Source of the DNA: Beroe ovata
Lineage: Eukaryota > Ctenophora > Nuda > Beroida > Beroidae
Direction of reading: 5' to 3'
DNA: 22,966 nucleotides
Assembly (NCBI GenBank): GCA_946803715.1
Contig: CAMPET010000026.1
Location: 132,679 to 155,644 of the forward strand
Shown piece after piece: positions 1 to 22,966 of this stretch. Numbering within the stretch: the stretch's first letter is position 1; every line of letters starts with the position of its first letter. Below the pieces are notes generated by a model that made no database searches, had not been told where the DNA came from, and was given only the letters and a program-made list of their open reading frames with translations. The position numbers and the translations under genes are program-made.

Positions 1-215
1 GAGCAATCGATGTACCAAAATACCATGCAAATCGCTAAAATGACATATTCTTGTGTTTGAACATAGCTCCGAAGTTAGCATATAGACCCCCAAATTTTTT
101 GACGTTTTACGTTCTTTGGGTCATGAGGGACATAACTGGAAAGTTTTATTAAAATGTGACGACCAGTTTTCGAGTAATCGTTGTACCAAAATACCATGCA
201 AATCGCCGAAATAAC
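1..215. repeat. Two copies of a ~171 bp tandem repeat unit
   Basis: Positions 1-44 and 172-215 are near-identical, sharing the core tgtaccaaaataccatgcaa with only a few substitutions around it. A tagctcc motif follows each copy at similar spacing (about 64 and 242). Only one full period is visible and the array may continue left of the window. This looks like a satellite-like or dispersed non-coding repeat. No coding content is seen. Confidence 0.65.
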
Positions 216-5622: not shown

Positions 5623-5646
5623 ATACGGATATCGATACGGATATCC
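5623..5646. repeat. Two tandem copies of a 12-bp unit
   Basis: The unit atacggatatcg at 5623-5634 is followed directly by atacggatatcc at 5635-5646. It sits just left of the 16-bp periodic array and may be part of the same repeat-prone segment. Confidence 0.8.
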
Positions 5647-5682
5647 AAGCCCTTCTGCTAGTCTAAATTATACGGTAACAGT

Positions 5683-5801
5683 ACGGAATACCCAACTTCT
5701 AGAATACCCAATGTCGCGAATACCCAACGTCGCGAATACCCAACAGAATTGTTGGGTATTCGCGACTTGGGTATTCCGTGCATGATGACCGGAATACCCA
5801 A
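5683..5801. repeat. 16-bp periodic tandem array with perfect 17-bp hairpin
   Basis: The 10-mer gaatacccaa occurs at 5686, 5702, 5718 and 5734, exactly 16 bp apart. It then appears inverted (ttgggtattc) at 5752 and 5767, and once more direct at 5792. The arms 5729-5745 (gtcgcgaatacccaaca) and 5750-5766 are perfect reverse complements around a 4-nt loop (gaat). An outer pair, acggaatacccaa at 5683-5695 and ttgggtattccgt at 5767-5779, extends the symmetry. This could be a foldback or MITE-type element, or an array of protein-binding sites. No transposase or target-site duplication was identified. Confidence 0.85.
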
Positions 5802-5850
5802 CTCATTACAGCTATAGAGGGTCATGTGAACCGCCCTTAATAACTGCTAT

Positions 5851-5945
5851 GTCACGTGACTTAATCGAGTCACGTGACCTTATACCGCTCTAGATGTTTG
5901 CCTTTTCACTTGACTCAATCGGGTCACATGACCCAATACCGCTCC
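5851..5945. promoter_or_regulatory. Repeated CACGTG palindromes (GTCACGTGAC)
   Basis: GTCACGTGAC occurs at 5851-5860 and 5869-5878. The variant GTCACATGAC is at 5923-5932. A 35-bp direct repeat (5857-5891 and 5911-5945, differing at a handful of positions) carries the second palindrome and the variant, each followed by ataccgctc. GTCACGTGAC is identical to the CLEAR-type E-box bound by TFEB/MITF-family bHLH-zip factors in animals. The cluster is about 350 bp upstream of the MGCGAS start codon, so a promoter role is reasonable. It could equally be a chance property of the repeat. Confidence 0.4.
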
Positions 5946-6228
5946 CGTTGTGCTNTTTTGGGCGTATCAGCGATAACAAAAGGCTGCACTCCGCTCCAAA
6001 TATCGCGGGTTTGGTGAAATCACGTGCACGGATGCGCGCGCGTCTCAACCGTGTACCATGTATGAAAATTCATGTTTCTGAAATCTGTGCGTAGTGGTTT
6101 CGTAGACCTGATTCGTTTACGTTATTCGTTCACGTTTCAAGATTAATCACCTGTTCATATTCTTGATAAACCAATGCCCGTACATCTTTTGAACTTTCCT
6201 TCCATTCAAAGCATGAACTAATTTTGGA

Positions 6229-6909
6229 ATGGGATGTGGAGCGAGTGCATTGCCTCCACAAACCAGCTACTCTGATGATGAAAATGGAAGTGTTAAGGAG
6301 TTCCTGACGAATGTGAGACGGTCCCAGTCGATTTTGGACACTAACTGCAATAAGAAACAACCGAAAAACAGTATCGTTTCCTACAAAGAACTCAAAGATA
6401 TCCTCTCGAAAAGGAAATTTTCTATTCGTAAGTCTTTCTGCTACAAGTACTATACTATACTGTGAGTTTTCTGAGTGCAGGGTCGAGAACTACGAAACCC
6501 GTGGAGAATTACTACTCATAGAAAGCAATTGATCCAATACCAAGAGGTATGGTAGTAGACTGTCTGCATGACACCCATTATCAATTTTATAGGTAAGCAG
6601 TCGCGTGAGCAGCGACGAGACACACTGGGGAGAGAAGTGGTTGTGGCGCCGGTACAGAACACCTCACCAGTCATTGTGGATGAGTATGCCACGTCACTTC
6701 GGACTGCGAAAGAAGCCGCTCTCATCTCCCTCAGCCCGTACCCAGGGACGGCAGGCGAGAACCTGCTCAAAATACGGGACAACCCTAGTCGAAAACGGCG
6801 TCTATCGTCACGGACTCCCAAATTCATGCCCATTCAGGAATCTAATGGGGAGGGCACGGTACTCCAGAGTAGTGACAATGTGGTGCCGGACGATTGGAAA
6901 CAATCCTAG
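6229..6909 (+). CDS. Small basic protein with predicted N-terminal lipid anchor (MGCGAS), two exons
   Basis: Exon 1 is 6229-6427 and exon 2 is 6593-6909 (TAG). The 165 bp intron starts gtaagt, ends tttatag and is phase 1, giving 171 residues. The N-terminus MGCGAS fits the N-myristoylation signal (Gly2, Ser6), with Cys3 as a probable palmitoylation site, so it probably sits on the inner face of a membrane. The rest is hydrophilic, with Ser- and Arg/Lys-rich segments (RRSQS, KRKFSIRK, SRKRRLSSRTP) that look like kinase sites and an unstructured tail. No enzymatic domain is recognisable and no family can be named. A 66-nt segment at 6481-6546, flanked by gtgcag and gtatgg, would also splice in phase but brings a TAG, so the simple two-exon model is preferred. 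It is transcribed in the same direction as the three genes to its right. Confidence 0.55.
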
Positions 6910-8113
6910 ACACTCATAAACATGGAATTCCGAGGTATTTGTGCCCAATTTAGTGCACAATTGCCGTGGTACTCTCAGTCAGTGTACTGGTTGAGGTAAT
7001 GTCCACTGGCAATCAATTAGACATTGTGTATAGACATTTACAAGTAAGGCTGTATTTTTCATTCTCAAGACTTTATACCATTACCACTACCAGTTGCTAC
7101 ATAATCAATTCTGTTAGTCGTATCCCTGAGAGGGTTGGGAGTAATGGTGACTTTTTCATGATAGTATGGACTAGCAGTAAACGCCCCTAAATGCAGTAAA
7201 AATTCCAGCAAGTCCCATGAAATAGTTTTCTCTTTCACCCAATTTCCTTTCTATTGCAATGCTATAGTGGGTAGTGGTCAGTTATGCGAAGGACCCGCTA
7301 TTATAGCCTGATATTAATCACGTGGCAGTTTGAACAATGGACATTGGACATGATTTATTGCCGCAGCCATGAGCCATATTGTGTCGTCTGTAACTTCTGA
7401 GTTCTGCGTAATCCATGATGTAATGATACAATTTTAAATTTGAATTGATTGTGTAATCTGAATAATGGTCAACGAGTTTGAAATTCCGAAAGTGGGTTGT
7501 TGTTTCCGATTTCGCAACTACAAAGATTCATATGACTCAATGGCTCTGTTACATGTCATTACGCAAGAGTAAATCTAATTATCCCACAAATCAGCTCTTT
7601 CATTGAGTGTTTGCAGCAAACGCAGCACCGAATCAAAAGTTCTACTTTCGATATTTTGCTTATCGTGCAATTAATATTATCGGTCGTTGAAGTTGAACAA
7701 ATTGAAATATACGAGTCCCTTTCAGTGTCACGCCACACGCAATTACATCATAGCTCATATCGGAACTGCTATAAAATCAAGCTCTGATTTTGAAGAATCA
7801 CAATATTTCGTTTTCTCCACCTCGATTGTCTAGCCGCTATGCTCTTGCAGTCTTTTTCTTTTGTTGGGGGGGGCCTGCCATTTTGATTTAGATTTTCAGG
7901 TCTTTAACATAAGTATTGAGTTTTACAAGCGCCCGGAATTCCATCGAAAAATTATGCCCTTTTGGGAGGGCCAGGGATACTCTGAAAAGGGTCTGGCCGA
8001 CGCGGCACTCAGTCAGTCAGTCTCTCTATGACTCAATCACAGTACAAGGTTCTCATAACACAAGGTATGTGGATTGGACCTGAGGCGGATCCTTTGTATA
8101 CGTCACCATGCTG

Positions 8114-8121
8114 TGACGTCA
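8114..8121. promoter_or_regulatory. CRE-like palindrome TGACGTCA
   Basis: This is an exact match to the cAMP-response-element octamer bound by CREB/ATF bZIP factors. It lies about 500 bp upstream of the SLC17-like start codon. An 8-mer can occur by chance, so a regulatory role is only possible. Confidence 0.3.
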
Positions 8122-8174
8122 CGTTAGATGAACACTCACCAGGTATTCATATTGGTAACATGAGAACAGTCTCT

Positions 8175-8206
8175 GGTATATATATCAGAGAATAATTATA
8201 TATACC
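8175..8206. repeat. Short AT-rich inverted repeat
   Basis: The arms ggtatatata (8175-8184) and tatatatacc (8197-8206) are perfect reverse complements separated by 12 nt. It may extrude as a hairpin or be a protein-binding dyad. No function can be assigned. Confidence 0.5.
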
Positions 8207-8401
8207 ACATGACGTGGGATTTTTCAGATGGTGCTACCTGTTTGCAAAAAAAACCCAGCTTACATTTGAATCTACTAGTACTAGGTATAAGGTTTTAGGT
8301 ACTTATAATTGCTTCAAGTTCGACTCATACTCAGTCATAGTCATTCATAGTCATATAAATATAATCGCTGAGCAATTTGCTCTATGTTACATCATGCGCC
8401 T

Positions 8402-8409
8402 TATATAAA
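8402..8409 (+). promoter_or_regulatory. Possible TATA box for the SLC17-like gene
   Basis: The sequence tatataaa lies about 210 bp upstream of the first in-frame ATG at 8619. The position suits a core promoter followed by a 5' UTR of roughly 180 nt. It rests on the motif alone in an AT-rich region. Confidence 0.25.
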
Positions 8410-8618
8410 CTTAAAGTATTTCATATTGAAATATGATAAGCCTTGCAGTTGACAAAATTTATAATGTTGATTTTCGATCGCCTGCCTAGAGCCGGAAGTT
8501 TCCATAATTTCATAGGTTATCGTTAGTCGTTCAAACTTTTCATCGTGGAGGTTACTTATAGATCACGGGATCTAAACCAATGAAGAAATAAGAATTTGAA
8601 GTTATCCCGAACGTAAGC

Positions 8619-10728
8619 ATGGCTTGCCCGGATAGTGTGATGAAGTGGTGTAGGAATCACTATCGCACTGCCGCATTTTCCCTCCTCGTCTGTCTCCTCT
8701 TTTTCCACATGTCATCGAGGTATTACTTTTATACATATAACTATAAGTGATCTGTGAAGTACCAAGCATGTCCAATATCATCACAAACTATACAACTCGT
8801 TACTCGAGCACCCTTCAACTTCAGAACATCATAATATGCCAATGTCACAGCTTTTTCCATATAATTCCCTTCTTTTTGTATTTCTGCGTTTGTGTGATCC
8901 TTTGTAAGTGATCACAGCCGGGACACTGTTTATACTACAACAACATTTCTCCGCTATTTCTATACCTCAGTACTGGAGTCTCGCTGGCGATGCTCTGTGG
9001 AATGGACAACTGCACTACAGCACGTGGCTCCAACGAGACGAACAGGAGTAGTCATGGGAACAACACGGTGCAAAAAGTACCGGAAACCACATCACAGTCG
9101 ACCACCAGGCTGGGTTCAACCACAACGAGCTACTGTTTCTCACATCACACTAAGGCTGCCCTGCTGGGGGCATATTTCTACGGACACCTTGCTCAATTCC
9201 CCTTCATAACACTGGCACATCGTACCAGTCACACAGCTGTTGCCAGAGTCGTGGTCCTCATCTCTGGAGTTCTACAGCTCGTGTTCCCCTTGAGTATGGA
9301 GATCTCACCCTACCTCAATGTCGGACTACAGGGGTTCAGGGGGGCTATCGTCGGTGTCATACTGCCCTACATCATGGACTTTGCCCGAGTATGGGGAGTC
9401 TCAGACTCAGAGACCAAGAGCTATATCTCGGTAATTGGGGCAACCATTATACTTGGTGCCAGTTTCGGACCAGCCATTGCCGGGGTGCTAGGCAGTCGCC
9501 TAGGATGGGAGTTCTACTTCTATGTGAGTGGATGCTCCTACCTTTTTCTCCTCGTGTTGATGCTCATATTCATACCCAGTTCACCCTCGGATGCTTTTCT
9601 GATGAGTGAAGAAGAGAAGAAAGCTCTGCGGACAGGTGATGAAAACAACACCTATTATGGAAGAGCATCTAGTGCGAAGAGTGAAGATGTGAGTGATGAT
9701 AAAGTGATGAGGTTGATGTCAAATGATGATCATAAACTTGAAGATGGTTCCCCAGGTCCGATTCACCGGAATGAAATATCATCAGCCATTGAAGAAGACG
9801 AAGATAACATCTCAGCTTTGTGTTCTGCAGACACTAACTTTGAAACTGGAGGATATAACCAGCCTGGGAAGGAGATCAATGGTGATGCCATTGTTGATGA
9901 AACTTTTGGAGCAAGGACTGGGGAAATAAAAAAAGTACGATTCTGGAAAATCTTCCTTCGGACCTATCCATATGCGTTCTGCGTGTATGCATTTTGCAGC
10001 AGTTTCACCTACTACACCAGTATCATTACAGCTCCATTTTACCTGAGAGAAGTCCTCGGGGTGTCGATAGATATCATATCACTCTGGAGTACTGTCATGG
10101 GGGTTATAGGTTGGTACTCGCAATAGAAAAATGTGTTATTGCACATCACGAACAAATACCACTCACTATCATTTCATATAGTTGTCATAGTTACACAAAA
10201 TTTAAGATCACAGCTATTGAACCAGTCAATTTATAATCCACAGGAGCTGTTGGTACCCTGGTTTTTTCCTTGATTTTCCAAAAGTTAGACAAGCGGTTAC
10301 CATGGTTACAATGTCGCATGGTCTTTTGTCTTATTCCACCTCTTATAATCACTGGTGGCAACGCTATTGTGCCCCTGTTCAACAAAATGGGAGTGGCTCT
10401 CACAGTTCTCCTATTGGATAGTTTGGCTAGGAGCACCGCGTTCAGTGGTTCTATCTACACAATCAACTATGAACTTGACCCAGTTAATGCACCACTTGTC
10501 CTGGGTTTGTTCAACACATTCGGTCAACTCTCAGGGTTCATCAACCCTCTCATAATGACAGAGTTGACTGGATCGTTGGACAAGGATGGTACTAATTACA
10601 CCGAGCTTTTCAAGGCAAAATGGGACATATTCTTCTTCATAAACGCAGGCCTCGAATTTGTAGCGATTGTTGCCATATTGACATCAGTATGCTTGCGTAG
10701 GAAAGAGTGGAAGAAATCGGAAAAATGA
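8619..10728 (+). CDS. SLC17-like major facilitator transporter (organic anion / phosphate type), three exons
   Basis: The exons are 8619-8719, 8971-10109 and 10244-10728 (TGA), giving 574 residues. Introns are gtatta...cctcag (phase 2) and gttggt...ccacag (phase 1). ATG 8619 is the first Met after an in-frame TAA at 8589. TM1 spans the first splice junction (about residues 17-44). A luminal/extracellular loop follows with four N-glycosylation sequons (N47, N55, N58, N64), typical of SLC17. Then come LLGAYFYGHLAQFPF, GFRGAIVGVILPYIMDFA, FGPAIAGVLGSRLGWEFYFYVSG and SEEEKKAL, matching SLC17 order. The central loop (about residues 246-365) is unusually long, acidic and serine-rich. The C-terminal half has AFCSSFTYYTSIITAPFYLREVLG and FNTFGQLSGFINPLI. 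SLC17 members move organic anions, phosphate, sialate or glutamate. This one is divergent and its substrate cannot be read from sequence. It lies ~0.5 kb upstream of the ACV synthetase on the same strand, so it may carry a beta-lactam or precursor, but that is inference. Confidence 0.85.
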
Positions 10729-11238
10729 GACTTCTAGGAAACATGATAAACAAATTGAAAGAGACGGAAATTTTAAAGATTTTCATCTTGGATTGATTAA
10801 TTCGTTGATTTAAAAACTTCATAGCTACTGCTAGCAGTAACGCAGAAATCCAATTTTGGAAATAAATGTTTCTGGTGTCAGGGTCGTACTCTGTGAATTT
10901 TATATTTATAGTTTTCGTTATGAATTGATCCTGCCTCAGTCGTTAGATCATCATATTATCTGTGAATTTATTTGCGTAAGAATACTATAGTTGTGTTGCA
11001 TAATCTGTAAAATTTTAACTTTTACAAGCAGGTGTTACTCGAAATTCCCCATACCTGTACAATGTACATATTGTAAGTGCAATTAGGTCCCACGGCCCAC
11101 AGTGCAGGTTATTATATCCGAGTAACAGTGCGTCATGGTAGTTCGGAGTTTAATCCTTGACAGTGATATATTTGAGGCACAGTTTACCGACTGACATTTT
11201 TTAATTTACACTTCTTGCAGGATGTCATCATAATCAAT
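10729..11238 (+). other. Intergenic region and probable 5' leader of the ACV synthetase gene, with leader intron
   Basis: After the transporter 3' UTR, a donor gtaagt at 11073 and a strong acceptor (ttacacttcttgcag, ending 11220) define a probable 148 bp intron in the 5' leader. Splicing would place the first exon end (...acatatt) next to gatgtcatc, 18 nt before the start ATG at 11239. The spliced leader would contain a short upstream reading frame of seven codons starting at the ATG at 11062. The transcription start and promoter cannot be located from sequence. Confidence 0.5.
10861..10866 (+). terminator. Polyadenylation signal AATAAA of the SLC17-like gene
   Basis: A canonical AATAAA lies 133 nt after the transporter stop codon, a normal 3' UTR length. 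It suggests the transporter mRNA ends before the ACV synthetase, so the two are separate transcripts. Confidence 0.6.
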
Positions 11239-13668
11239 ATGTCTGAAGAAGTGGTAAAGCATCATGACAACACTACTAGATGTGACTTATCCCCGTACCA
11301 GAAACCCTCACGCGATCTGTTGCAGGTCGGTCATACCAGAGTATTCCAGACCATTTCAACTGGAGTTCATCTTGGGAATATAATCGCTTCGGATGTCACT
11401 AAGATTATGGAAGTTATTTGGCACAGGGTTCTTTGTATTTTCGGATCTTCTGACAACACAACTCTATTGGTAGAAAACCAAGATGGAACAGCATCTTGGC
11501 ACTATCTGGATCACCGACAAATCCTTGACCTTGATATTGAAGCTGCTTCAAGGAAGCTCGGGATAACAAGTCAATGTGAGAATGCTGATGCTATTTACAG
11601 GTGTCATGAAGTGATGAGTTCTGATGCCACAGAGGGTCACTCTCTACAATTTTTCTTTAAAGAGGCTCCAACCAAAGAAATTGGCATCTCGTTTGACAGT
11701 GAGGCTTACAATGAAGAGTCTCTCATGAGTTTACTGGAGGTAGCAGCTCATTTGCTGACACAAGTTGACTCCAATCCCTCACTGCCGTTAAGAGAGCTGA
11801 ATATCGTGCCTCCCACCCAAATTGCAATGATGGAGTCATGGAACAAAACAGATGGAGAATTTCCTGATAAGTTACGGTTAGAGCATCTCTTTGAGCTAGC
11901 AGTGGCCGGTTCTGCTGATGATAAGATAGCCGTGAAGCATGGTTTGCAGACCCTCACCTACCATGAGCTTAACAACACAGCTAATCAGGTGGCAAGGTGT
12001 CTGAGGGGACAGTTCTGCGTAACACCCGGTCAATTGGTTGGACTGCTGGTAGACAAGAACGAACACTGTATAATCTTGCTCCTTGCTTTATGGAAATGTG
12101 GAGCGGCTGCTGTGGCTATCGATCCTGCATATCCAGACAAAAGAGCGAAGTTTTCAATTACCGATACTGGCCTGTGTCTTATCCTCACAGCTGCGGCTTA
12201 TGTTCATCGTATGCAGGATATTAGCCAGGAACTGGACCAGAAACTAGAGATTATTTCTCTGGATGATATTTACGGAGCATCCTCAAAACTACTGTCAGAT
12301 AACTGCAACAATGAGTTGTCCAATACTGACCTTGCTTACATTTCTTACACTTCCGGAACCACTGGCACACCGAAAGGGATCAAGAAGAAACACGTCAGTC
12401 TGGTAAACAGTATTACCGACCTGTCGGAGAAGTATGAAGTAAGGATGAGTCAAGAAGAGAATATAGTACTTTTCTCCACTTATGTGTTTGAGCCCTTTTA
12501 TAGACAGATGCTGATGGCACTAATCAATGGGCACTGTCTGCACATAGTTGACGATGGGCTGAAGCTAGATGCTATCAGGTTCTCCCAGTTCTTGGAAGAG
12601 GAGAGGATCACATATCTGAATGGAACTCCGTCAATCTTACAAGAATATGACTATTCAAAATGTCATCAACTGAAACGCCTCATCCTTGTTGGTGAACAGC
12701 TAACCACTATACGATATGAAACCCTAAGAGAAAAGTTTTCAGGTAAAATAATCTGTGAGTATGGCTTCACTGAGTCTGCCTTCGTAACTCTTCTCAAACA
12801 TTTCAGAACTGAGGACAAGAGGGAAGACACGAGTCTTGGAAAACCTGTGAGAAACGTGAAGTGCTACATACTTGATGAAAATCTCAGCCCACTTCCCCTG
12901 GGAGTCATAGGAACACTATTTGTAGGGGGAGCTGGTGTGTCGTCAGGTTATTTGAACAGGGAATCCCTCACAATGGAGAGGTTTCTACCCAACCCATACC
13001 AGACTGAACAGGATACTGAGATGAGCATGAACAGCTTGCTGTATAACACTGGGGATCTTGTCAGCTACACTAGGCACGGTGAAATACGTTTCCACGGGAG
13101 GAGTGATTTCCAGATCAAGTTGCGAGGTATCAGGATAGAGCCCGGTGAAATCGAGACTGTCCTGTCCTCCCATTGCATGGTCGAACGATGTGTTGTTTTA
13201 GTCAGAGGGAATGGATCCGATGATGAAGCAGCTAGGGTACTCATAGCATTCTGCACTGCAAAAAACAGCATGATATTGAATTTGAAGGAAACAGACCTGA
13301 TAAGCTTTTTAGAGGACTCTCTACCTCGATACATGGTGCCAAGTAGAATCGTCCAGGTCAATAGGATACCTGTCAATGTAAATGGCAAGGTTGACATGAA
13401 AGCTCTTCCAGACATTCCACTTTTCACAAGAAATACTACAGTTGATATATCAGTATCTGAAATAGAAAGGGCATTTGCTGATATCTGGAGCAAAATCTTA
13501 GGAGTCCAGGCGAATTTGATTCCTCTGGATGCAGATTTCTTTATCCTTGGAGGCAATAGTATCAGATGTGTACAAGCCATCAGTCAGATTCATCAGCAGC
13601 TTGGTCTTCATTGTTCAGTTGATGATTTCTTCAGATTAAAGAAATTGAATCTTATTGTTCAGGAAATC
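11239..13668 (+). other. ACV synthetase module 1: N-terminal remnant, A1 (alpha-aminoadipate), T1
   Basis: Residues 1-212 resemble the C-terminal part of a condensation domain ending in the usual linker (LNIVPPTQIAMMESWN), a hallmark of ACV synthetases. A1 has TSGTTGTPKG (371-380), TGD and RGIRIEPGEIE. The ten specificity positions read E418 P419 R422 N461 I482 V484 E507 F515 V516 K717, i.e. EPRNIVEFVK, which as I recall is the published aminoadipate code of fungal ACV synthetases. The EPFYR stretch is characteristic. The carrier domain has GGNS with the phosphopantetheine Ser774, Asn replacing the more common Asp. L-aminoadipate is available in animals as a lysine breakdown product. Confidence 0.93.
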
Positions 13669-16600
13669 TTTAACAGAGAGGAGAGGCGGGATGAGTCTGA
13701 AATTAAGGTCAAAACTGACACAGATAGTATTCTGACAAAAGGATACTACTTGGCAAACAGTATGCAGCAAAGTATGGCTTATCAGAGTATGAAGGGAGAA
13801 TCCAGTAACGGAGTTTACACGATGCAATCACTTCATGAGGTATCTGCTGACATAGAACCGAACTTGTTCAAACAAGCATGGGTTCTTGCACAGCAGAGAT
13901 TTTCGACGCTCAGATCGAAATTTCAGCTGGGTGAAGTATCATACTACATGGTTATTGATGAAATATCTTCCCTCACATATCATCACCATGACTTATCAAC
14001 TGACAGTGACTTTGAGCAATATGTCCAAGAGCTGATTGCGAAGGACAGAAAACAACCATATGATATTTCTCAAAGTGGTCTCTTTAGGGTGCACCTTATT
14101 TCTGTTTCAGAGCACAAAAGCATCATCCTTTTTAGCTGTCATCATATCATTCTAGATGGATGGAGTTTACCAAAAATGTTTGAATTCATTTTTGATTCAT
14201 ATCTAAAGTTACTCAACAGACAGAATGCAGTTTACCTCGTAGACTCCTCTTATCAAGAAGCTCTCCTTTTCTTGGAAAGCAGAGTCATGAACGATCTGAA
14301 GGAAGACACGCAATTTTGGTCCACAGAGCTTGATAAGCTTCAAGATCGATGTCAGTTAGCTGGTCTTCTACTTCCTGATAAGAAGAAAATCCAGTTGTCC
14401 ACATACAATAAGGTTGAAACACAAGCAGAAGATGAGATATGCATTTCATCCTCCGCAAATTTACATAGATATTGCCGTGACCACGGCTTCACCTTGAATT
14501 CAGTGCTCCAGTTTGTATGGCATCAAGTGTTGGCTGCCTATGGTAACGCTAAGCAAACTGTGGTAGGAACAACATTCTCTGGCAGGAACATTCCCGTCAA
14601 TGGAATTCAAGATACAGTCGGAATGATGATCAATACTCTTCCTGTCATAGTAGAGCATGACCATATGGGTTCTCAGTCTGTTATTTCAGCAATTGCTAAG
14701 ATTCAGGATACTATTAACGCAGTTAATCAGAGAGCTCATTGCTGGATAGCAAAGCTCCCCACTCACAACTTCAAACATGAACTCTTCGACAGTCTATTCA
14801 TATTTGATGTCTACCCTTGCAATACAGTTTCTTACCATAAAGACTCTTTCATTGTGAAAAAGGTGTTCAACTATGATAAATTAGATTTTCCACTGGTAGC
14901 TGTTGCTACTGGAGAAGAATGGGTGAAGTTCAAACTGATGTACGCTGAAGAGATCTTTGACCCAGTTTGCATGAGAAACATATTAGAACTTGTTGATTTT
15001 CTTGTCACTCAGATAGTGCTGAAAGAGTCAATTGAGGTAGATGCTTTGGATCTGGTTACTCCTGCTCAAAAACAACTCATCAATGAGTTTAACAGAACTG
15101 ATGTAGAATATCCACTCAATCTTTGTCTTCATGAAATATTTGAAATGGAAGTGGAGAGAGTAGCAGAAAAAAAGGCTGTTATCTACGGGGAAATATCACT
15201 AACATACAGAGAGCTGAACAATTTGGCAAATCGTCTGGCTTTTGTCTTAAAAAGAGATCATGACTTGAGTTTAGGGGACAAGGTGGCTCTCTTTCAAGAG
15301 AAGAGTGAGCTTCTTATTGCATCAATTTTAGCTATTTGGAAATGTGGTGCAGCCTTTGTTCCTATTGGAGTGGACTACCCAGAAGAAAGAGTTGAATATA
15401 TCATCCAGGATAGCTGCTCAAAGATAATACTCACTCGTTCCAAAGAGAAGAAACGGTTGTCATATTTGAATACTAAAAGCTCTTGTCAGATTCTGGATGT
15501 TCAAGAGATTCCATTTCAAGAATTTGACGGACATATTGATAATCAGCATTGTCAAATGTCTTCGGATGATCTAGCATACATCATATACACATCAGGCACG
15601 ACAGGCAAACCTAAGGGGGTGATGGTACAACACAGAGGAGTTGCAAACTTGAAGTTTGCCATGGAAGACTTGTTTGAACTTAAAAAGGGCACCGAGGTAA
15701 TCCTATCGTTCTCCAACTATATCTTTGATCACTTTGTTGAACAGATGAATGATGCTATCCTGACTGGACAGACTCTCCTCATTTTAGATGACAACTTAAG
15801 ATACGATAAGAAGGGGCTGCATGATTATATGAGGAAGAATAAAGTAACATATCTCTCTGGAACGCCTACAGTTGTGTCACAGTACAACATTTCTAATTTA
15901 CCCCATCTTAAGAGAGTTGATGTTGTAGGAGAGGACCTAAAAGAAGAAACATTTAACAAACTCAGATCCCAGTTTTCTGGACTTATTATTAATGGTTATG
16001 GGCCCACAGAAATATCAATAACAAGTCACAAGCGGCTTTATTACATGGGAGATCATAGAACAGATAAGAGTATTGGTCACCAGATTTCGAATAGCAAGAC
16101 CTACATTGTTAGCTACCGCAATCAGCTGTTACCAATAGGAGCAGTGGGTGAGATGCTCATTGGAGGAGTTGGAGTGACTCAAGGATACCTAAATAACACC
16201 CAGCTTACACAAGAAAAGTTCATTCCGAATAAATTCACAGGAGATACTGAACATAGCAGAATGTATGCTACAGGAGACTTGGTGCGATGGTTGCCCAATG
16301 GGGAGATTGAATATTTGGGGAGAGTTGATCAACAAGTGAAGATAAGAGGTATAAGAATTGAGATGGCAGAGATCGAGTCAGTGATTGAATTGCATCCATC
16401 AGTGGAACAAGCAGCGGTGAAACCTTATGGTTCATCCATGAAGGATCTTGCTGCATTTGTTTCTCTGAAATCTGATTGCGAAACTCTAAATGAGGAGGAT
16501 ATCAAACGTCACGTGTCTTCAAAAGTTCCATTTTCGTTGATACCATCACGGATAGTCTTTCTTGACGATCTGCCAATCACCCCAAGTGGAAAGCTTAACT

Positions 16601-19600
16601 ACAAAATGCTGCCAAAAATTGAAGAATTAAGAGAATCCCAGACGTTCATCCCAAAGAATGAAGTGGAAAACAAACTTGCTTCTCTCTGGATATCAGTCCT
16701 AACAATCGCACCCCATGCCCTCAGCTCAGATCTTAGCTTCTTCCAAGCTGGAGGTGACAGCTTGCTGATAGTTCATCTAATATCCTTGATTAGAGACGTT
16801 TTTCAAACGAGCCTCTCAGTTACTGACATCATGAACAACTCAACCATCCCTCAACAGGCTGTATTGATTATGGATAGGATAGAGAAGCAGTTATCAACCA
16901 TTGGAAAAGTTACACCAATTGATAAACCAGCTAGGGCCACACCAGAGCAACAAAATCTTTTATTTATCCACGAGAGAGATGAGAATTGCAATGCATACAA
17001 CATTCATCTGACATACCACTTGAATCCAGTAGTTGATATTAACTCACTCGACAAAGCACTGGAGCTGGTCATGGAACGACACTCAATCCTGAGAACTGTT
17101 TACCGGTTCAGTAATGAGGGCTTTATCCAGGATGTTTTGCCTGTTGGTGCAGTTAAGAACGTTCTCACATATGCATCTGCAAAATCAGCTGATGAGGTGG
17201 ATAGATTGTTAATCAGAGAAAGCAAACACGTATTTTCACTTGATTCAGACCCTCCCATGAGATCACTATTGATACGGAATGGAACAATATTGATTTTGAG
17301 TGTTGTAGTTCATCATATAGCATTTGATGGTCATTCTGCATCTTTGTTTGAGGAAGAGTTGCGAAATTTGTACTCTTTAGTCAATCAAGGGCTATCAAAA
17401 GAGCAAGATAACCCTGTTCCCAGTTTCAGCGATTTCTGTCATTCAGAAATCATGAAAAGTATCCGAGCTCCAGATGGAACTAACACAGCTTCCCCTCCAC
17501 CAACCATATTGAACCATTCGGTCAATTCACCTGAATCCTCTGACGGATGCAAGGTATCGTTTGGTCTGAACTCGGAATTTTTACCTACTTTGGAGACCAT
17601 TTCAAAGGAGAACAAGGTAACCTTGCACTGCCTCTTGACTGCTGCATTCTTCAAAACGTTACAGAACGTGACTGGTGAGAGTATGGTTTCATTCACTTCA
17701 CCATTCGGAACACGAACTATTGACTATGAGTTCACTATCGGATTCTTCGTTTCTATGAAGGAGATGTATCTGAACATGAATAATTACAGTGATTTTCCTG
17801 CTCTTCTCGAGTCAGTTAAGGATCAAATACATGCACACCTGAAGGAAGTGAATTCTCATGACGAGTCCAGAAAGCAAATATCAATTGTTTTTGCCACTCA
17901 GAATGAGAAAAACGAGCTTGATGCAGGTGATCTGTTCATCAGCCGATATGAACTGAAAAATGGCGAATTTACTCCAGCAAAGTTCGACATATACTTTGAA
18001 GTGATCACTGGGAATAAGTTCAGAGTGGACGTGACCTACAAGTCAAGCATCTATAAATCTGAGACCATGAAGGAGTTTGTTGATAACTTTTCTAATGTTC
18101 TGAGTTCACTTGTTGAAGAGAAATCCTTGAATCACCAAGAAAGCATGACACTTGAATCATGTTTCATTGCAACGGCTAGCCAGAACGAGAGGAGAATTGC
18201 TCTGATTCACGGTGATAACCAGCTTACCTACAAAGAACTTCTTATCAGGTCACTCCAACTGAGTAAGTGTCTTCGCAATAATTATCATGTTCAACCTGGG
18301 GATTTCGTTGGATTGTACTTTGAGAAGAATTTTGGGATGATAATCAGCATTATAGCTGTGTGGATGTTAGGAGCAGCTTATGTACCAATTGACATCGACC
18401 AACCAAGAGATAGAGTTAAGTTCCAAGTGTCTGAGGCTGACCCAAAAGTTGTACTATGCAACAAGAATAGTTTTGAAATCCTAGAAACTTTCTTACAGTG
18501 CCCAATTTTCTCTATTGAAGATGTTCAGCAGCAAATTATTAACAACTTTGCCACTAGCTGTAAAAGTGGATCTGCTGACAACATAGCATATCTTATGTAC
18601 ACCTCTGGCACAAGTGGTTGGCCGAAAGGTGTTCTGGTTTCGCAGAAAAATCTCTTGAGCTTCTTCAAGGCTATCACATACACTTACTTTCACCAGCTCC
18701 AGCTGAATTTTTCCACTGTGCTCTTTCTATCGAACTACTCATTCGATTTTTCAATTGAACAAATCATGTTGTCCTTGTTTAGAGGGGGCACCCTTGTTCT
18801 TCCTCTTGACAAGGGGCCAGTCGTATTTGACTCCGCCTTCTATGATTATGTCAACAGAACGGGAGTGGATTTCATGAGTGGCACTCCATCACATCTTACC
18901 CTCTGCCAACTTGATTCTGTCAAGAACCTGAAAGTTCTGCTGCTGGCGGGAGAGGGTGTTTCTGAAACTCACTTCAAAACATTCCGTAACTCATTCTCAG
19001 GGGTTATCATCCAAGCTTATGGTACAACAGAAACATCTGTTTATAACACTTACAAGATCTACAGAGACTTAGATGAATTCGAGGACTCCATTGGCAAACC
19101 CCTACCTAATTCAGCAGCGGTTGTCTTGGATGAAGCAATGAATGAAGTGTCAGAAGGTGAGCTCTGCATTTTGGGAGAATGTGTTACCAGAGGATATCTG
19201 AACAGACCAAGAGAGACATCAGATTCATTCATATATCACAACGGTTCCCTTGTCTATAGAACAGGAGATAGAGTGAAAATACTGAGTAATGGGGAGCTCC
19301 AATACCTGGAGAGGATAGACTCCCAGATGAGTGTGAATGGTATGAGGATAGAAAAGGGTGAAATAGAAAGTCATGTGTTGAGCTGGGACAAAATTACACA
19401 GGTTCATGTGATGCTTCATCCAAATTCTTCAAATTTGGTATGTTACTTCGTGAGTAGCAGCAAAGTTAAAAATTTCCATCTTCAAGCCTCCCTCAAAGAA
19501 AAGCTTCCAGAGAAAATGATCCCAAAGAGATTCATAGAGATTCCTGCCATGCCATTGACGAAAAATGGGAAAATCGACGAGAAAACTCTTCTGTTATACT

Positions 19601-21993
19601 GTAATGAGCTTGAATCTTCAGAATCAATTGATTCCGATTATCAGAGTGACACATGGAATAAAACAGAGGAGAAAGTTCGGGATGTCTGGTCGTCAGTTCT
19701 TGATCTTCATCCTGCTGATATTGGATTAGATGACGATTTCTTTATGTCTGGTGGAGACAGTATCAAATCTCTCCATCTTGTGGCTGAATTGAGGAGATCT
19801 TTCGCATCCAAGGTATCGGTTAAGGATGTTTTCACTAGCAGAAATATCAGAAAATTGTCTTCTGTAATTGAAAATCGGCTACAAGAAAGGATCAGTGTTA
19901 AATCCACCTATCATGATAGTACTAATGTGGCTGAAGTCTCCACATGTCTTCTGCCAATTCAGGAATGGTTCTTTGCAAAGCAACTGCAGAACAGAGATTC
20001 CTGGAATCAGTGCTTCGCTATACGCCTTCCAGTCAATTTTGATGTTGAGAAGATCAGATTTGGAGTTCAACGGATTATTGAATACCATGAAGTTTTCAGA
20101 TACCGGTTTACCAAATCAAGTGATTGTTGGACTCAATCTTTAGCCAGTGGAGCATATTTGAATTTCCACGTGATTGATGCCACTGATATGGCCGATGAAT
20201 GGTTGTTTAATCAGTTGGCATCAATCCAGTCCAGATTCAATCTTGAGAGGGGGCCACTGTATGCAGCTGTGTGTATAATGAGGGAAGAGTATTCATTGAT
20301 TTGGTTTTCAGTGCATCATCTCATAGTGGATACTTTCAGTTGGGAAATCATCAGAAATGAACTTAGAGCAAGTTATCAGCAACAACATCTTCGAGTTAGT
20401 GACAATGCATCTGTGACACTTACTGAGTGGTTATTAAGCAGTAAGCAAGCTGTCTGGTCGTACCATGTCCAATCGCACTGGGAAAGCATGAGAAATAAGG
20501 TGTCTAAGTGGAATGAAGACATAAGGGACATTCTCAGTCCTGCATCAACAAGTCATTTTGAACTACAATTTCAGTCTCCTAGTGCTCTATACAACAAGCA
20601 TTTCTCTCCCTATATAATATTGCTTGCTTCTCTAGGTGAATCACTGAGATCCATCACTGGTTTGAGCAGTAATTTTGTCACTGTAGAAGGCCATGGTCGA
20701 GAAAGTGATGATAAAGATCTTTCCGGCATAGTGGGCTGGTTCACTTCAATGTTTCCAGTAGAATTATGTACGAAAGATTCGTTCTTGGAGTTGGACAGTT
20801 TGAGTTCTACAAAGGACATGGTGGCATCAGTGCCCCAAAATGGAGCAAGTTATGGTCCAATTCACGGCTTTACTGATGGCTTTCTTCCGAAATTCTCGTT
20901 CAATTTCCTCGGAATGATGTCAAAGAACAACGACCAAGAATGGGCTATCACAGATGAGTTTGGAATGTCTCTTTTCCCCTTGGAAGAGGCAAGCAATATT
21001 GATACCTTGGTTGATATTACAGCTGCTGTGTTTGAAGGGAATCTGAAAGTTCAAATTGCATCTCGGCTGAGTAAAGAGATTGCGATAAACCTGACAAGAT
21101 CCTTCGAATCTAACATGAACAGCATTTCAGAATATTTAGCTGCCAATTCTCTAGAAAGAATTGCCACAAGCCACTTACTCCGGCCCCAAGTCACTTACCC
21201 CGGGTCTGAAAGTAGCTTTGACTCATCATCCGATGGGAAGGTCTACTCAGATAATTCTCTGTTCAGAGATGATGACAGTTTGGAGGACGACTCGTATGAG
21301 ATGTTCATATCCCTGGAGCATCAAAAACTGTTCATCCTACCGCCTGGAGAAGGTGGAGGGGAATCTTATCTTAACAACATTGCTCCCATCCTGCAGCCCC
21401 ACTACAGTCTCTATCTCTTCAATAATCTGTACAGAGATCACGGTGAGCCAAACACAATACCCCAATTAGCAGAGTTATACTCTTGCCACATTCAACGCAT
21501 ACAAAGAACTGGAACAGTCCATCTACTTGGTTGGAGTTTCGGAGGCGTTCTAGCATTTGAGATTGCTCTTAACTTGACCATGAAGGGCTTCGTTGTAGGA
21601 AATGTGTTCCTGATAGATCCTTTCTTCGATGTTCCCACAGCATACAGAGACTGCAGCATCCCTGAATCATCAACTGTAGTGGACTGTATCAACATGAAGT
21701 ATAGACCAGCTAGAGAGAAGATTTCAGAAGTGCTTGAGAAGTCAGAAGTTCGGTTCGTGCTCTTCAAAATGGTTAAACCGATCCGAAAGCCAGTTTTAAA
21801 ACAGGACAACCAGTTTTTCAGTTATTATCTCAAGAAACAGTACAATAATCTTGATATGCTAATTCCCGTCAATTCGATTCAGAAACATGACATACAGGAT
21901 AACCATTATACTTGGGTCGGTAACAAAGCTGCTGTAACCAAACTTTGTTTCAAAGTTATTCATCACATGAACTCTTGGACAGATGCTTCTTGA
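11239..21993 (+). CDS. pcbAB: ACV synthetase: delta-(L-alpha-aminoadipyl)-L-cysteinyl-D-valine synthetase, trimodular NRPS
   Basis: This cytosolic non-ribosomal peptide synthetase makes the tripeptide LLD-ACV from L-alpha-aminoadipate, L-cysteine and L-valine, the first step of penicillin and cephalosporin biosynthesis. It has 3,584 residues from ATG 11239; fungal and bacterial ACV synthetases are about 3,600-3,800. The order is short N-terminal condensation-like remnant (1-212), A1-T1, C-A2-T2, C-A3-T3, epimerase, thioesterase, exactly the family layout. Every core motif is intact (see module entries): three TSGT(T/S)G loops, three phosphopantetheine serines (774, 1841, 2841), two condensation HHxxxDG motifs, and thioesterase Ser3433. 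The coding region is one uninterrupted exon. ATG 11239 is chosen because the frame upstream crosses a splice acceptor ending at 11220. Codons are AT-rich with many AGA/AGG arginines, unlike high-GC actinomycetes, so the gene looks adapted to its host. A host phosphopantetheinyl transferase must activate it. No AATAAA occurs before the next gene. Confidence in function is very high. Confidence 0.97.
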   Translation: MSEEVVKHHDNTTRCDLSPYQKPSRDLLQVGHTRVFQTISTGVHLGNIIASDVTKIMEVIWHRVLCIFGSSDNTTLLVENQDGTASWHYLDHRQILDLDIEAASRKLGITSQCENADAIYRCHEVMSSDATEGHSLQFFFKEAPTKEIGISFDSEAYNEESLMSLLEVAAHLLTQVDSNPSLPLRELNIVPPTQIAMMESWNKTDGEFPDKLRLEHLFELAVAGSADDKIAVKHGLQTLTYHELNNTANQVARCLRGQFCVTPGQLVGLLVDKNEHCIILLLALWKCGAAAVAIDPAYPDKRAKFSITDTGLCLILTAAAYVHRMQDISQELDQKLEIISLDDIYGASSKLLSDNCNNELSNTDLAYISYTSGTTGTPKGIKKKHVSLVNSITDLSEKYEVRMSQEENIVLFSTYVFEPFYRQMLMALINGHCLHIVDDGLKLDAIRFSQFLEEERITYLNGTPSILQEYDYSKCHQLKRLILVGEQLTTIRYETLREKFSGKIICEYGFTESAFVTLLKHFRTEDKREDTSLGKPVRNVKCYILDENLSPLPLGVIGTLFVGGAGVSSGYLNRESLTMERFLPNPYQTEQDTEMSMNSLLYNTGDLVSYTRHGEIRFHGRSDFQIKLRGIRIEPGEIETVLSSHCMVERCVVLVRGNGSDDEAARVLIAFCTAKNSMILNLKETDLISFLEDSLPRYMVPSRIVQVNRIPVNVNGKVDMKALPDIPLFTRNTTVDISVSEIERAFADIWSKILGVQANLIPLDADFFILGGNSIRCVQAISQIHQQLGLHCSVDDFFRLKKLNLIVQEIFNREERRDESEIKVKTDTDSILTKGYYLANSMQQSMAYQSMKGESSNGVYTMQSLHEVSADIEPNLFKQAWVLAQQRFSTLRSKFQLGEVSYYMVIDEISSLTYHHHDLSTDSDFEQYVQELIAKDRKQPYDISQSGLFRVHLISVSEHKSIILFSCHHIILDGWSLPKMFEFIFDSYLKLLNRQNAVYLVDSSYQEALLFLESRVMNDLKEDTQFWSTELDKLQDRCQLAGLLLPDKKKIQLSTYNKVETQAEDEICISSSANLHRYCRDHGFTLNSVLQFVWHQVLAAYGNAKQTVVGTTFSGRNIPVNGIQDTVGMMINTLPVIVEHDHMGSQSVISAIAKIQDTINAVNQRAHCWIAKLPTHNFKHELFDSLFIFDVYPCNTVSYHKDSFIVKKVFNYDKLDFPLVAVATGEEWVKFKLMYAEEIFDPVCMRNILELVDFLVTQIVLKESIEVDALDLVTPAQKQLINEFNRTDVEYPLNLCLHEIFEMEVERVAEKKAVIYGEISLTYRELNNLANRLAFVLKRDHDLSLGDKVALFQEKSELLIASILAIWKCGAAFVPIGVDYPEERVEYIIQDSCSKIILTRSKEKKRLSYLNTKSSCQILDVQEIPFQEFDGHIDNQHCQMSSDDLAYIIYTSGTTGKPKGVMVQHRGVANLKFAMEDLFELKKGTEVILSFSNYIFDHFVEQMNDAILTGQTLLILDDNLRYDKKGLHDYMRKNKVTYLSGTPTVVSQYNISNLPHLKRVDVVGEDLKEETFNKLRSQFSGLIINGYGPTEISITSHKRLYYMGDHRTDKSIGHQISNSKTYIVSYRNQLLPIGAVGEMLIGGVGVTQGYLNNTQLTQEKFIPNKFTGDTEHSRMYATGDLVRWLPNGEIEYLGRVDQQVKIRGIRIEMAEIESVIELHPSVEQAAVKPYGSSMKDLAAFVSLKSDCETLNEEDIKRHVSSKVPFSLIPSRIVFLDDLPITPSGKLNYKMLPKIEELRESQTFIPKNEVENKLASLWISVLTIAPHALSSDLSFFQAGGDSLLIVHLISLIRDVFQTSLSVTDIMNNSTIPQQAVLIMDRIEKQLSTIGKVTPIDKPARATPEQQNLLFIHERDENCNAYNIHLTYHLNPVVDINSLDKALELVMERHSILRTVYRFSNEGFIQDVLPVGAVKNVLTYASAKSADEVDRLLIRESKHVFSLDSDPPMRSLLIRNGTILILSVVVHHIAFDGHSASLFEEELRNLYSLVNQGLSKEQDNPVPSFSDFCHSEIMKSIRAPDGTNTASPPPTILNHSVNSPESSDGCKVSFGLNSEFLPTLETISKENKVTLHCLLTAAFFKTLQNVTGESMVSFTSPFGTRTIDYEFTIGFFVSMKEMYLNMNNYSDFPALLESVKDQIHAHLKEVNSHDESRKQISIVFATQNEKNELDAGDLFISRYELKNGEFTPAKFDIYFEVITGNKFRVDVTYKSSIYKSETMKEFVDNFSNVLSSLVEEKSLNHQESMTLESCFIATASQNERRIALIHGDNQLTYKELLIRSLQLSKCLRNNYHVQPGDFVGLYFEKNFGMIISIIAVWMLGAAYVPIDIDQPRDRVKFQVSEADPKVVLCNKNSFEILETFLQCPIFSIEDVQQQIINNFATSCKSGSADNIAYLMYTSGTSGWPKGVLVSQKNLLSFFKAITYTYFHQLQLNFSTVLFLSNYSFDFSIEQIMLSLFRGGTLVLPLDKGPVVFDSAFYDYVNRTGVDFMSGTPSHLTLCQLDSVKNLKVLLLAGEGVSETHFKTFRNSFSGVIIQAYGTTETSVYNTYKIYRDLDEFEDSIGKPLPNSAAVVLDEAMNEVSEGELCILGECVTRGYLNRPRETSDSFIYHNGSLVYRTGDRVKILSNGELQYLERIDSQMSVNGMRIEKGEIESHVLSWDKITQVHVMLHPNSSNLVCYFVSSSKVKNFHLQASLKEKLPEKMIPKRFIEIPAMPLTKNGKIDEKTLLLYCNELESSESIDSDYQSDTWNKTEEKVRDVWSSVLDLHPADIGLDDDFFMSGGDSIKSLHLVAELRRSFASKVSVKDVFTSRNIRKLSSVIENRLQERISVKSTYHDSTNVAEVSTCLLPIQEWFFAKQLQNRDSWNQCFAIRLPVNFDVEKIRFGVQRIIEYHEVFRYRFTKSSDCWTQSLASGAYLNFHVIDATDMADEWLFNQLASIQSRFNLERGPLYAAVCIMREEYSLIWFSVHHLIVDTFSWEIIRNELRASYQQQHLRVSDNASVTLTEWLLSSKQAVWSYHVQSHWESMRNKVSKWNEDIRDILSPASTSHFELQFQSPSALYNKHFSPYIILLASLGESLRSITGLSSNFVTVEGHGRESDDKDLSGIVGWFTSMFPVELCTKDSFLELDSLSSTKDMVASVPQNGASYGPIHGFTDGFLPKFSFNFLGMMSKNNDQEWAITDEFGMSLFPLEEASNIDTLVDITAAVFEGNLKVQIASRLSKEIAINLTRSFESNMNSISEYLAANSLERIATSHLLRPQVTYPGSESSFDSSSDGKVYSDNSLFRDDDSLEDDSYEMFISLEHQKLFILPPGEGGGESYLNNIAPILQPHYSLYLFNNLYRDHGEPNTIPQLAELYSCHIQRIQRTGTVHLLGWSFGGVLAFEIALNLTMKGFVVGNVFLIDPFFDVPTAYRDCSIPESSTVVDCINMKYRPAREKISEVLEKSEVRFVLFKMVKPIRKPVLKQDNQFFSYYLKKQYNNLDMLIPVNSIQKHDIQDNHYTWVGNKAAVTKLCFKVIHHMNSWTDAS
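13669..16866 (+). other. ACV synthetase module 2: C, A2 (cysteine), T2
   Basis: The condensation domain carries HHIILDG (968-974). A2 has TSGTTGKPKG (1451-1460) and YGPTE. Its specificity residues are D1497 H1498 E1501 S1540 D1561 V1563 G1586 I1594 T1595 K1785, i.e. DHESDVGITK, identical to the cysteine code known from ACV synthetases. The carrier motif is GGDS with Ser1841. This module joins cysteine to the aminoadipyl group through the side-chain carboxyl, the distinctive delta linkage of ACV. Confidence 0.94.
16867..19860 (+). other. ACV synthetase module 3: C, A3 (valine), T3
   Basis: The condensation domain carries HHIAFDG (2025-2031). A3 has TSGTSGWPKG (2455-2464) and YGTTE. The specificity residues are D2503 F2504 E2507 S2547 L2568 A2570 A2593 V2601 Y2602 K2778, i.e. 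DFESLAAVYK. The valine code usually reported for ACV synthetases is DFESTAAVYK, so only position 299 (Leu for Thr) differs. The A8 motif reads NGMRIEKGEIE, lacking the usual Arg-Gly start. The carrier motif is GGDS with Ser2841. Valine is the expected substrate, with a small chance of altered preference among branched amino acids. Confidence 0.9.
19861..21993 (+). other. ACV synthetase epimerase and thioesterase domains
   Basis: The epimerase (about residues 2875-3308) has HHLIVDTFSW (3026-3035), VEGHGRE, GWFTSMFPV and FSFNFLG, the standard E-domain motifs. It converts the C-terminal valine to the D form. A serine/aspartate-rich linker follows. The thioesterase (about 3357-3584) begins with LPPGEGGGESY, a stretch typical of ACV synthetases, and has GWSFGG with Ser3433, probable acid Asp3460 and probable His3556 (NHYTW). 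It releases the free LLD tripeptide. All catalytic positions appear intact. Confidence 0.92.
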
Positions 21994-22409
21994 AAAGACC
22001 AAGGTTCACATAACTGTGTCCCAACTTGAACTTTTGTTGTGATGAAACTTGACTCTTGAGTAAGTTAAATGATAACATTAGTTATTTCTTAAGTGATAAC
22101 TTCACTGTTTTTCTTTTCGATTTAGTTCGTGTTTTTTGCCGCCAAAATAACCTTGTATTTTGATGATGCATAAAGGAAGAATTGGCAAGATATATCCCAA
22201 CTTTTAAAGTTACCGATTAAAATCAGAATGTTTATCTTTTGAATGTTGAATTTAAAAATAGATCATTTGATTATAGAATGCCTCTTCTCCATTCGTTTAC
22301 TGACCCTTTCGATTCTGTAAGGCCAATATTCACACTTGGCAATAATTATTGCTTCCACGCCCCATCACTGATAACATCTATTTACATGCATAGCATATGT
22401 TCATTGGTC
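21994..22409 (+). other. Short intergenic region between ACV synthetase and IPNS
   Basis: Only 416 bp separate the stop codon at 21993 and the IPNS ATG. No AATAAA is present; the nearest variants are CATAAA and ATTAAA around 22168-22222. A strong pyrimidine tract ending in tttag (at 22125) could be a 3' splice site for an IPNS leader intron. The IPNS frame stays open upstream to 22239 and includes an ATG at 22278, but that would add 44 residues not seen in the family. Promoter elements could not be identified. Confidence 0.45.
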
Positions 22410-22966
22410 ATGACTGGGGAAGAATTTGTTCCTGTCATTAGCATTGCTCCTCTATTTGGAAGTGATTTTGAAGCTAAACGCAGAGTTGCAGATGAAATAG
22501 ATAAGGTGAGTAATCAGGTAATAAGGTGAGTAATCATGTGAGTATCAGAAAATCGCCGCTACAGGTGTACATATATCGTGAGAATATCATTGATGAGCAT
22601 ACCATCGATGGGGGGGCAGTTGGTCATCAGTCATCAGTCATCAGTATCCTCTCCCCAGGTGTGTAGAGGTTCGGGCTTCTTCTACATCAGTGATCATGGC
22701 ATTGACATGGACCAACTCTATGAAACATCCATGGAGTTTCTTAAAACAATCAAAGATGACGAAAAGCAGCGGATTGCCATTGCTGCTTGGTCAGTATTAT
22801 CGATTGTGTGTGTATCACTGTCTGTGTAATAATGTGTGTGTGCACTGTGCGCGTGTGCACTGTGTGTGTTTGTCTCTCTGCGTCTGTGTCTGTGCCCGTG
22901 TCAGTGTGTATGCGCGCGCATGTGTGTGTGTGTATGTACTGTGTGTATGAGTGTGTGTGTGTATGT
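22410..22966 (+). CDS. pcbC: Isopenicillin N synthase, first two exons; truncated by the window edge
   Basis: This non-haem iron(II) oxidase uses O2 to close ACV into isopenicillin N, forming the beta-lactam and thiazolidine rings. Exon 1 is 22410-22505 and exon 2 is 22659 to about 22789. The first intron is gtgagt...ccccag, phase 0. About 75 residues are visible and align with the IPNS N-terminus: FVPVISIAPLFGSD, then RRVADEIDK, VCRGSGFFYISDHGID, and EFLKTIKDDEKQRIAIAA. The VPxIxIxPLFG start and the GFFYxxxHG segment are diagnostic of IPNS within the dioxygenase superfamily; CRGSGFFY resembles bacterial IPNS as I remember it. ATG 22410 is chosen because it puts the usual few residues before VPVI. 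The iron ligands (two His and an Asp) and the ACV-binding arginine lie in exons beyond the window. The second donor (gtcagt at 22790) is tentative. Its position after the ACV synthetase on the same strand strongly supports the assignment. Confidence 0.92.
22501..22536 (+). repeat. Duplicated splice-donor segment in IPNS intron 1
   Basis: The 16-mer ataaggtgagtaatca occurs at 22501-22516 and again at 22521-22536. It copies the exon end and the gtgagt donor, so two equivalent donors sit 20 bp apart. Use of the second (at 22526) would add 20 nt and shift the frame relative to exon 2. Confidence 0.8.
22624..22644. repeat. Three tandem copies of tcatcag
   Basis: A perfect 7-bp unit is repeated three times just before the polypyrimidine tract of IPNS intron 1. 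It is a small local duplication with no evident function. Confidence 0.85.
22803..22966. repeat. GT-rich microsatellite in IPNS intron 2
   Basis: From about 22803 to the window end the sequence is dominated by imperfect tg/gt dinucleotides with interruptions (ctct, gcgc, tatg). It begins just after the tentative exon 2 donor and continues off the window. Open frames across it are low-complexity artefacts. Confidence 0.85.

Follow-up and report, generated by a model that had tools for sequence, protein, structure and literature searches.

Does an animal hold the first steps of penicillin synthesis? The question is raised by a contig of 22,966 nucleotides, hereafter the window (the whole stretch of DNA that was analyzed), in which a first-pass annotation reported an intact ACV synthetase (ACVS) on a eukaryotic, probably animal, chromosome. 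That report was right about the ACVS and was incomplete, as the adjoining isopenicillin N synthase (IPNS) gene had been overlooked. The best explanation, to which we give a probability of roughly 80%, is a ctenophore nuclear tandem ACVS-IPNS pair that was horizontally acquired, has been kept under selection, and would make ACV and probably isopenicillin N.

An ACV synthetase gene and its relatives

The forward-strand frame at 11239–21993 runs for 3,584 codons without a stop or an N, by both the open reading frame list and the translation; the frame second in length within the window encodes 378 aa. Pfam places on it three AMP-binding stretches, three Condensation stretches (C1, C2, and the E domain), three PP-binding stretches, and one Thioesterase stretch. 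The domain order is A-T-C-A-T-C-A-T-E-TE within one protein, of a length that we counted as falling in the ACVS range (~3,600–3,800 aa). Specificity codes and motifs were read from an alignment of the window ACVS with 15 other ACVS, and the features are as follows.

11219..11220, +, probable splice acceptor AG of a 5′UTR intron, directly 5′ of the ACVS ATG (sequence read)
11239..21993, +, ACV synthetase (pcbAB-type NRPS), 3,584 aa plus stop (single open frame, Pfam, alignment, tree)
11878..13425, +, A1 domain, aminoadipate code EPRNIVEFV(K) (alignment, A-domain tree)
13558..13560, +, T1 phosphopantetheine serine 774, LGGNS (alignment)
13741..15081, +, C1 condensation domain, HHIILDG (alignment)
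15127..16629, +, A2 domain, cysteine code DHESDVGIT(K) (alignment, A-domain tree)
16759..16761, +, T2 serine 1841, AGGDS (alignment)
16936..18141, +, C2 condensation domain, HHIAFDG (alignment)
18151..19611, +, A3 domain, valine code DFESLAAVY(K) (alignment, A-domain tree)
19759..19761, +, T3 serine 2841, SGGDS (alignment)
19945..21111, +, E (epimerization) domain, HHLIVDT (alignment)
21325..21990, +, TE domain, active-site motif GWSFGG, Ser 3433 (Pfam, alignment)

A pyrimidine-rich tract precedes the probable acceptor. The best Pfam stretch for the TE domain stops at residue 3476, and the remainder to the C-terminus was assigned to TE. All seven motifs (LGGNS, AGGDS, SGGDS, HHIILDG, HHIAFDG, HHLIVDT, and GWSFGG) are intact in the alignment, and open frame, Pfam, and alignment agree on the gene limits, domain order, unbroken frame, and intact catalytic motifs that the first-pass annotation had given. 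No ACVS-specific NCBIfam model is among the 25 families shown, out of 108, for this protein.

Codes for aminoadipate, cysteine, and valine are all present, the first two as originally read. Over the nine variable positions, A1 (EPRNIVEFV) is identical to A. nidulans, and A2 (DHESDVGIT) is the same in 13 of the 15 other ACVS rows and differs from the remaining two, the bacterial rows. The third had been called "(nearly) valine"; it is indeed the ACVS valine code, and the "nearly" can be dropped, since DFESLAAVY is exactly the code of the Streptomyces clavuligerus and Lysobacter ACVS. For the tenth code position, visual inspection of the translation gives the Lys of motif A10.

The relationship goes beyond mere resemblance. 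In a tree of 83 of the 84 A domains from 28 hand-chosen ACVS (one domain of 350 residues or fewer was left out), A1, A2, and A3 fall in three separate clades of the matching ACVS domains (support 100, 99, and 100, respectively). Because each A domain lies within its own ACVS clade, we take the gene to be an ACVS by descent, and the tree proposed with the first-pass annotation thus bears out its identification for all three domains. The nearest four rows in each clade are the ENA sequences P0002, P0003, P0004, and P0006, which are each about as long as the window ACVS and are 58%, 55%, 48%, and 41% identical to it; for the labelled fungal and bacterial ACVS rows, identity is 34%–36%.

A full-length, unrooted FastTree phylogeny was built from 43 of the 101 ACVS of 3,300–4,100 aa among the first 121 proteins (the set was reduced by a shared-word criterion, 19 rows being kept regardless). 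The window ACVS and these four relatives, then P0015, P0009, and P0010, form a group set apart with support 100; on the opposite side of that branch stand 35 rows, including fungi, bacteria, a tardigrade, and a fly. In both trees the window ACVS lies outside the fungal clade and outside the bacterial clade. Compared with the fungal and bacterial enzymes (pcbAB), it is thus alike in module order, codes, motifs, and length, but belongs to a separate clade with P0002, P0003, P0004, and P0006, and to an animal genome. A scan of a collection of genome contigs, Streptomyces among them, with an ACVS alignment returned 78 loci with 27%–37% identity in the best segment; they look like generic NRPS and were set aside.

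No springtail- or Plectus-labelled match is among the best 120 of either ACVS search, in which hits lacking a species label could be such; the second search, for which the best 120 of 1,004 matches were considered, used a profile built on four sequences (a fly ACVS, two from tardigrades, and one lacking a species label). Although the database includes Mnemiopsis proteins, no Mnemiopsis-labelled ACVS is among the best 120 matches. As many ACVS hits carry no species label, this argues only weakly for an absence of the gene from Mnemiopsis.

The absence of stops can be set against an expectation. With transitions weighted 2, single-base changes in the ACVS give 0.056 nonsense per missense change. 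On the end branch leading to the ACVS (0.44 changes per site), selection-free evolution should have produced 88 nonsense changes, and on the shorter P0002 branch (0.29) it should have produced 58; none is observed. This supports purifying selection on the ACVS, which had earlier been claimed from the uninterrupted frame.

The adjoining isopenicillin N synthase gene

Behind the ACVS, on the same strand, begins a second gene, whose start lies 284 or 416 bp 3′ of the ACVS end.

22278..22505, +, IPNS exon 1 (start codon 22278, or 22410 by comparison with solved IPNS)
22506..22658, +, IPNS intron 1, GT...AG (joined exons match PDB 1bk0-type IPNS gaplessly across it)
22659..22789, +, IPNS exon 2 (remaining gene beyond the window, in or past a 7.2-kb N run)

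The joined exons match residues 8–76 of solved IPNS structures in PDB with an E-value of 5e-13, gapless at the splice, compared with 4.8e-9 for the best non-IPNS enzyme; this N-terminal part is hence nearest to IPNS among solved non-heme oxygenases. Pfam DIOX_N scores 41.3 bits on the joined exons. In the DIOX_N search of the genome, the single IPNS exons, individually too short, went undetected, and detection came only with the exons joined; NCBIfam gives no match for the fragment. The readable part is stop-free and cleanly spliced.

About 7.2 kb of N follow the window on the scaffold. TG/CA dinucleotide runs stand at both sides (positions 8241–9901 of locus L006 and the window end), and because of these simple repeats at its edges we favor an assembly gap over a stretch of sequence that was withheld. 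The PF03171 search of the genome gave eight matches, none on the scaffold (contig C26), and the catalytic half of IPNS (iron ligands, RxS) is absent from the assembly; for that reason the IPNS may be broken. The top PF03171 match in the genome, a frame on contig C80, was rejected as IPNS: it matches other 2-oxoglutarate oxygenases, with no IPNS at E 0.001.

If the IPNS is truncated or decayed, an active ACVS would feed a pathway that ends at ACV or another sulfur peptide, with a non-antibiotic role such as a thiol or a signal. This would fit a readable part confined to the residues corresponding to 8–76 of solved IPNS, a remainder that would fall in the N run with no PF03171 match on the scaffold, and a genome in which the penDE and cmcI families were not found. 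However, the readable part carries no stop, is cleanly spliced, and is 52%–55% identical to Streptomyces IPNS, and we regard this alternative as unlikely.

The arrangement of the two genes, adjacent and on one strand, is that of a beta-lactam cluster. A search with the IPNS fragment matched 7 of 392 Streptomyces genomes, and in four of the seven the match is an IPNS that follows the end of an ACVS in the same orientation and shares 52%–55% identity over 69 residues; the other three (L109, L110, and L111) were not accepted as IPNS, a neighboring ACVS end being absent. With A. nidulans IPNS, 31 of 69 residues (45%) are identical. An IPNS search of six genomes reached via the NRPS-like loci of the contig scan found none (0/6). 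The pcbAB and pcbC genes are described as having the same orientation in bacteria and opposite orientations in fungi (PMC8954384). The ctenophore pair is thus like the Streptomyces pcbAB-pcbC tandem in order and strand, but differs from it in having a spliceosomal intron in the IPNS, and in that no further beta-lactam cluster gene was recognized in the window. Given the shared gene order and strand, and the closer match of the IPNS fragment to Streptomyces than to Aspergillus, we favor a bacterial-type source for the pair. The ACVS itself, lying outside the fungal and bacterial clades, points to no particular donor.

The host genome and the origin of the pair

The window is one contig between N runs on a 501-kb scaffold of a 77.8-Mb assembly (534 contigs). 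Past the left run, of 1.5 kb, the same scaffold carries an ERCC5 gene, whose best labelled relative is from Mnemiopsis leidyi (587 bits; a snail is second, at 254 bits). The two are 44% identical in an alignment that stays colinear for 877 columns and takes in the weakly conserved middle. In a FastTree phylogeny of this neighbor gene and 80 listed hits (the program warned of long branches elsewhere), seven sequences, including the window's neighbor and Mnemiopsis, form a clade with support 100.

Elsewhere in the genome, non-heme oxidase genes of the FYY type (C333:29548–32784 and two loci at C95:31097–35286) encode proteins ending in GAIELFYY, and the C95 locus also has RELEHVD. Exons of further IPNS-like non-heme oxidases, perhaps of the non-FYY ctenophore groups, were seen at C103:170339–173596 and C47:86537–89719. 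FYY oxidases, with their conserved GAIELFYY C-terminus and RELEHXD iron site, are described for luminous ctenophores, whereas none was detected in the non-luminous Pleurobrachiidae (PMC4488382). These motifs and the grouping of its ERCC5 with Mnemiopsis identify the host as a ctenophore, probably a luminous one. The expectation of an animal chromosome is thereby confirmed. The assembly has no match to COX1. Collagen repeats are numerous in the genome, and at C39:118000–128500 they lie in two very long uninterrupted frames of 1,714 and 1,740 aa.

The IPNS fragment belongs to the same superfamily as the FYY and non-FYY oxidases of ctenophores (Francis et al. 2015), and the FYY genes are present in this genome, but the fragment has no significant tblastn match to the FYY loci and is instead IPNS-like. 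The ACVS codes are unlike phenylalanine- or tyrosine-type codes. This matters for a reading that gives the pair a different product in place of ACV, the luciferin coelenterazine built from Phe-Tyr-Tyr. FYY oxidases, present in the host, are candidates for coelenterazine synthesis, which has been called a mystery and for which a non-ribosomal synthetase has been named as one option in ctenophores (PMC4488382). Yet all three A-domain codes are ACVS codes and each A domain lies in its ACVS clade; on the codes, we ruled out coelenterazine synthesis by the window NRPS, and the reading is scarcely credible.

A fungal or bacterial contaminant misjoined into the scaffold had been named among the results that would overturn the first-pass annotation. 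The window is a single contig flanked by N runs on both sides, and the ACVS coding frame is intronless, as such a misjoin would have it. Its first 290 positions, however, are a repeat with 39 genome matches, on its own contig and on 26 others, and the repeat also stands across the left gap. Both the IPNS and the transporter upstream of the ACVS are spliced:

8990..10109, +, MFS transporter of the SLC17 (VGLUT/sialin) type, main exon
10244..10728, +, the same SLC17-type transporter, last exon

The G+C content of ACVS third positions (0.415) resembles that of the left flank at positions 1–8900 (0.413 overall), and in codon usage the ACVS shows a correlation of 0.83 with the pool of seven other frames (0.11–0.88 with each singly). 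The closest ACVS relatives, moreover, lie outside the labelled fungal and bacterial sequences. A contaminant is thus very unlikely.

PDB matches of the transporter are VGLUT2, VGLUT3, and sialin; a part in product export is possible but unsupported. Farther upstream, reading by eye shows exons of a small C2-domain-like protein (1440–2700, +), a pair of exons for a small cysteine-rich protein that begins like a signal peptide (3550–4400, −), and a gene of at least two exons that starts MGCGAS and is possibly N-myristoylated (6230–6909, +).

How did the pair reach a ctenophore? Inheritance from early animals with loss in most lineages would account for the scatter of ACVS among animals (including those in PMC10531068) and for a group that is deep and apart from fungi and bacteria. 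However, the tardigrade and fly ACVS lie across the support-100 branch, with fungi and bacteria, and the tandem order and IPNS similarity indicate a bacterial-type source; we consider vertical descent improbable. Most likely, as judged from gene order and similarity, the pair was acquired horizontally from a bacterial-type cluster. The transfer would be old enough for the pair to have gained introns and a host-like base composition, after which purifying selection would have kept it.

A proposed beta-lactam pathway in an animal

In the proposed pathway, the genes being presumably expressed and their enzymes active, the A domains of the ACVS would activate L-aminoadipate, L-cysteine, and L-valine, which the pantetheinylated T domains would carry. 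C1 and C2 would join the residues, E would epimerize valine, and TE would release LLD-ACV, which IPNS, using Fe(II) and O2, would close to isopenicillin N. The genome has one match each for an ACPS-type PPTase and for saccharopine dehydrogenase; a native PPTase plausibly activates the T domains, and lysine breakdown via saccharopine plausibly supplies aminoadipate. We infer that the host can make ACV, as first proposed, and it probably makes isopenicillin N. In exon-by-exon searches of this incomplete assembly, penicillin acyltransferase (penDE; PF03417) and CmcI (PF04989) have no match, for which reason further known beta-lactam steps are left without an assigned gene. Contigs C50 and C47 have open frames of ~480 aa in which a condensation-type acyltransferase domain stands alone. 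Together, the genes suggest an animal holding an antibiotic pathway.

ACVS and IPNS have been described in springtails and in the nematode Plectus sambesii, in a survey of 1,059 animal genomes; that survey reported no NRPS in its two tardigrade species (PMC10531068). Database entries for ACVS include the tardigrade Paramacrobiotus metropolitanus and the fly Pseudolycoriella hygida; among our matches, P0076, P0108, and P0120 comprise one fungus gnat ACVS and two tardigrade proteins. The first-pass statement that, among animals, springtails have such enzymes was therefore too narrow. For Folsomia candida, it has been proposed that the ACVS is served by the animal's own single PPTase and its own lysine breakdown (PMC5200902). 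The ctenophore is like Folsomia candida and Plectus sambesii in being an animal with ACVS and IPNS (PMC10531068, PMC5200902), and like the former in the support offered by animal PPTase and lysine catabolism (PMC5200902). It differs from the springtail and Plectus cases in belonging to a different phylum and in having no match to the cmcI family, whose cephamycin-type gene is known from springtails. No report of ACVS in ctenophores was found in the open-licence literature, as judged by titles, the starts of abstracts, and some passages. An intact ACVS, followed by at least the N-terminal part of an IPNS, is placed in a phylum for which we found no earlier report in that literature.

It is possible, though we hold this only tentatively, that P0002, P0003, P0004, and P0006 are from other ctenophores. 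The beta-lactam pathway would then be ancient, gained before these lineages split, selected since, and perhaps lost in Mnemiopsis, and its product may be an endogenous antibiotic that shapes the microbiota. If this is true, several deep ctenophore lineages keep a self-made beta-lactam pathway.

In the accounts drawn on here, beta-lactam genes in animals have so far been reported from soil-living springtails and one nematode. Ctenophores may be the sister group of all other animals, and an ACVS-IPNS pair among them makes the repeated gain and retention of antibiotic synthesis by animals testable. The pair would also supply a new deep branch of both ACVS and IPNS for biochemistry.
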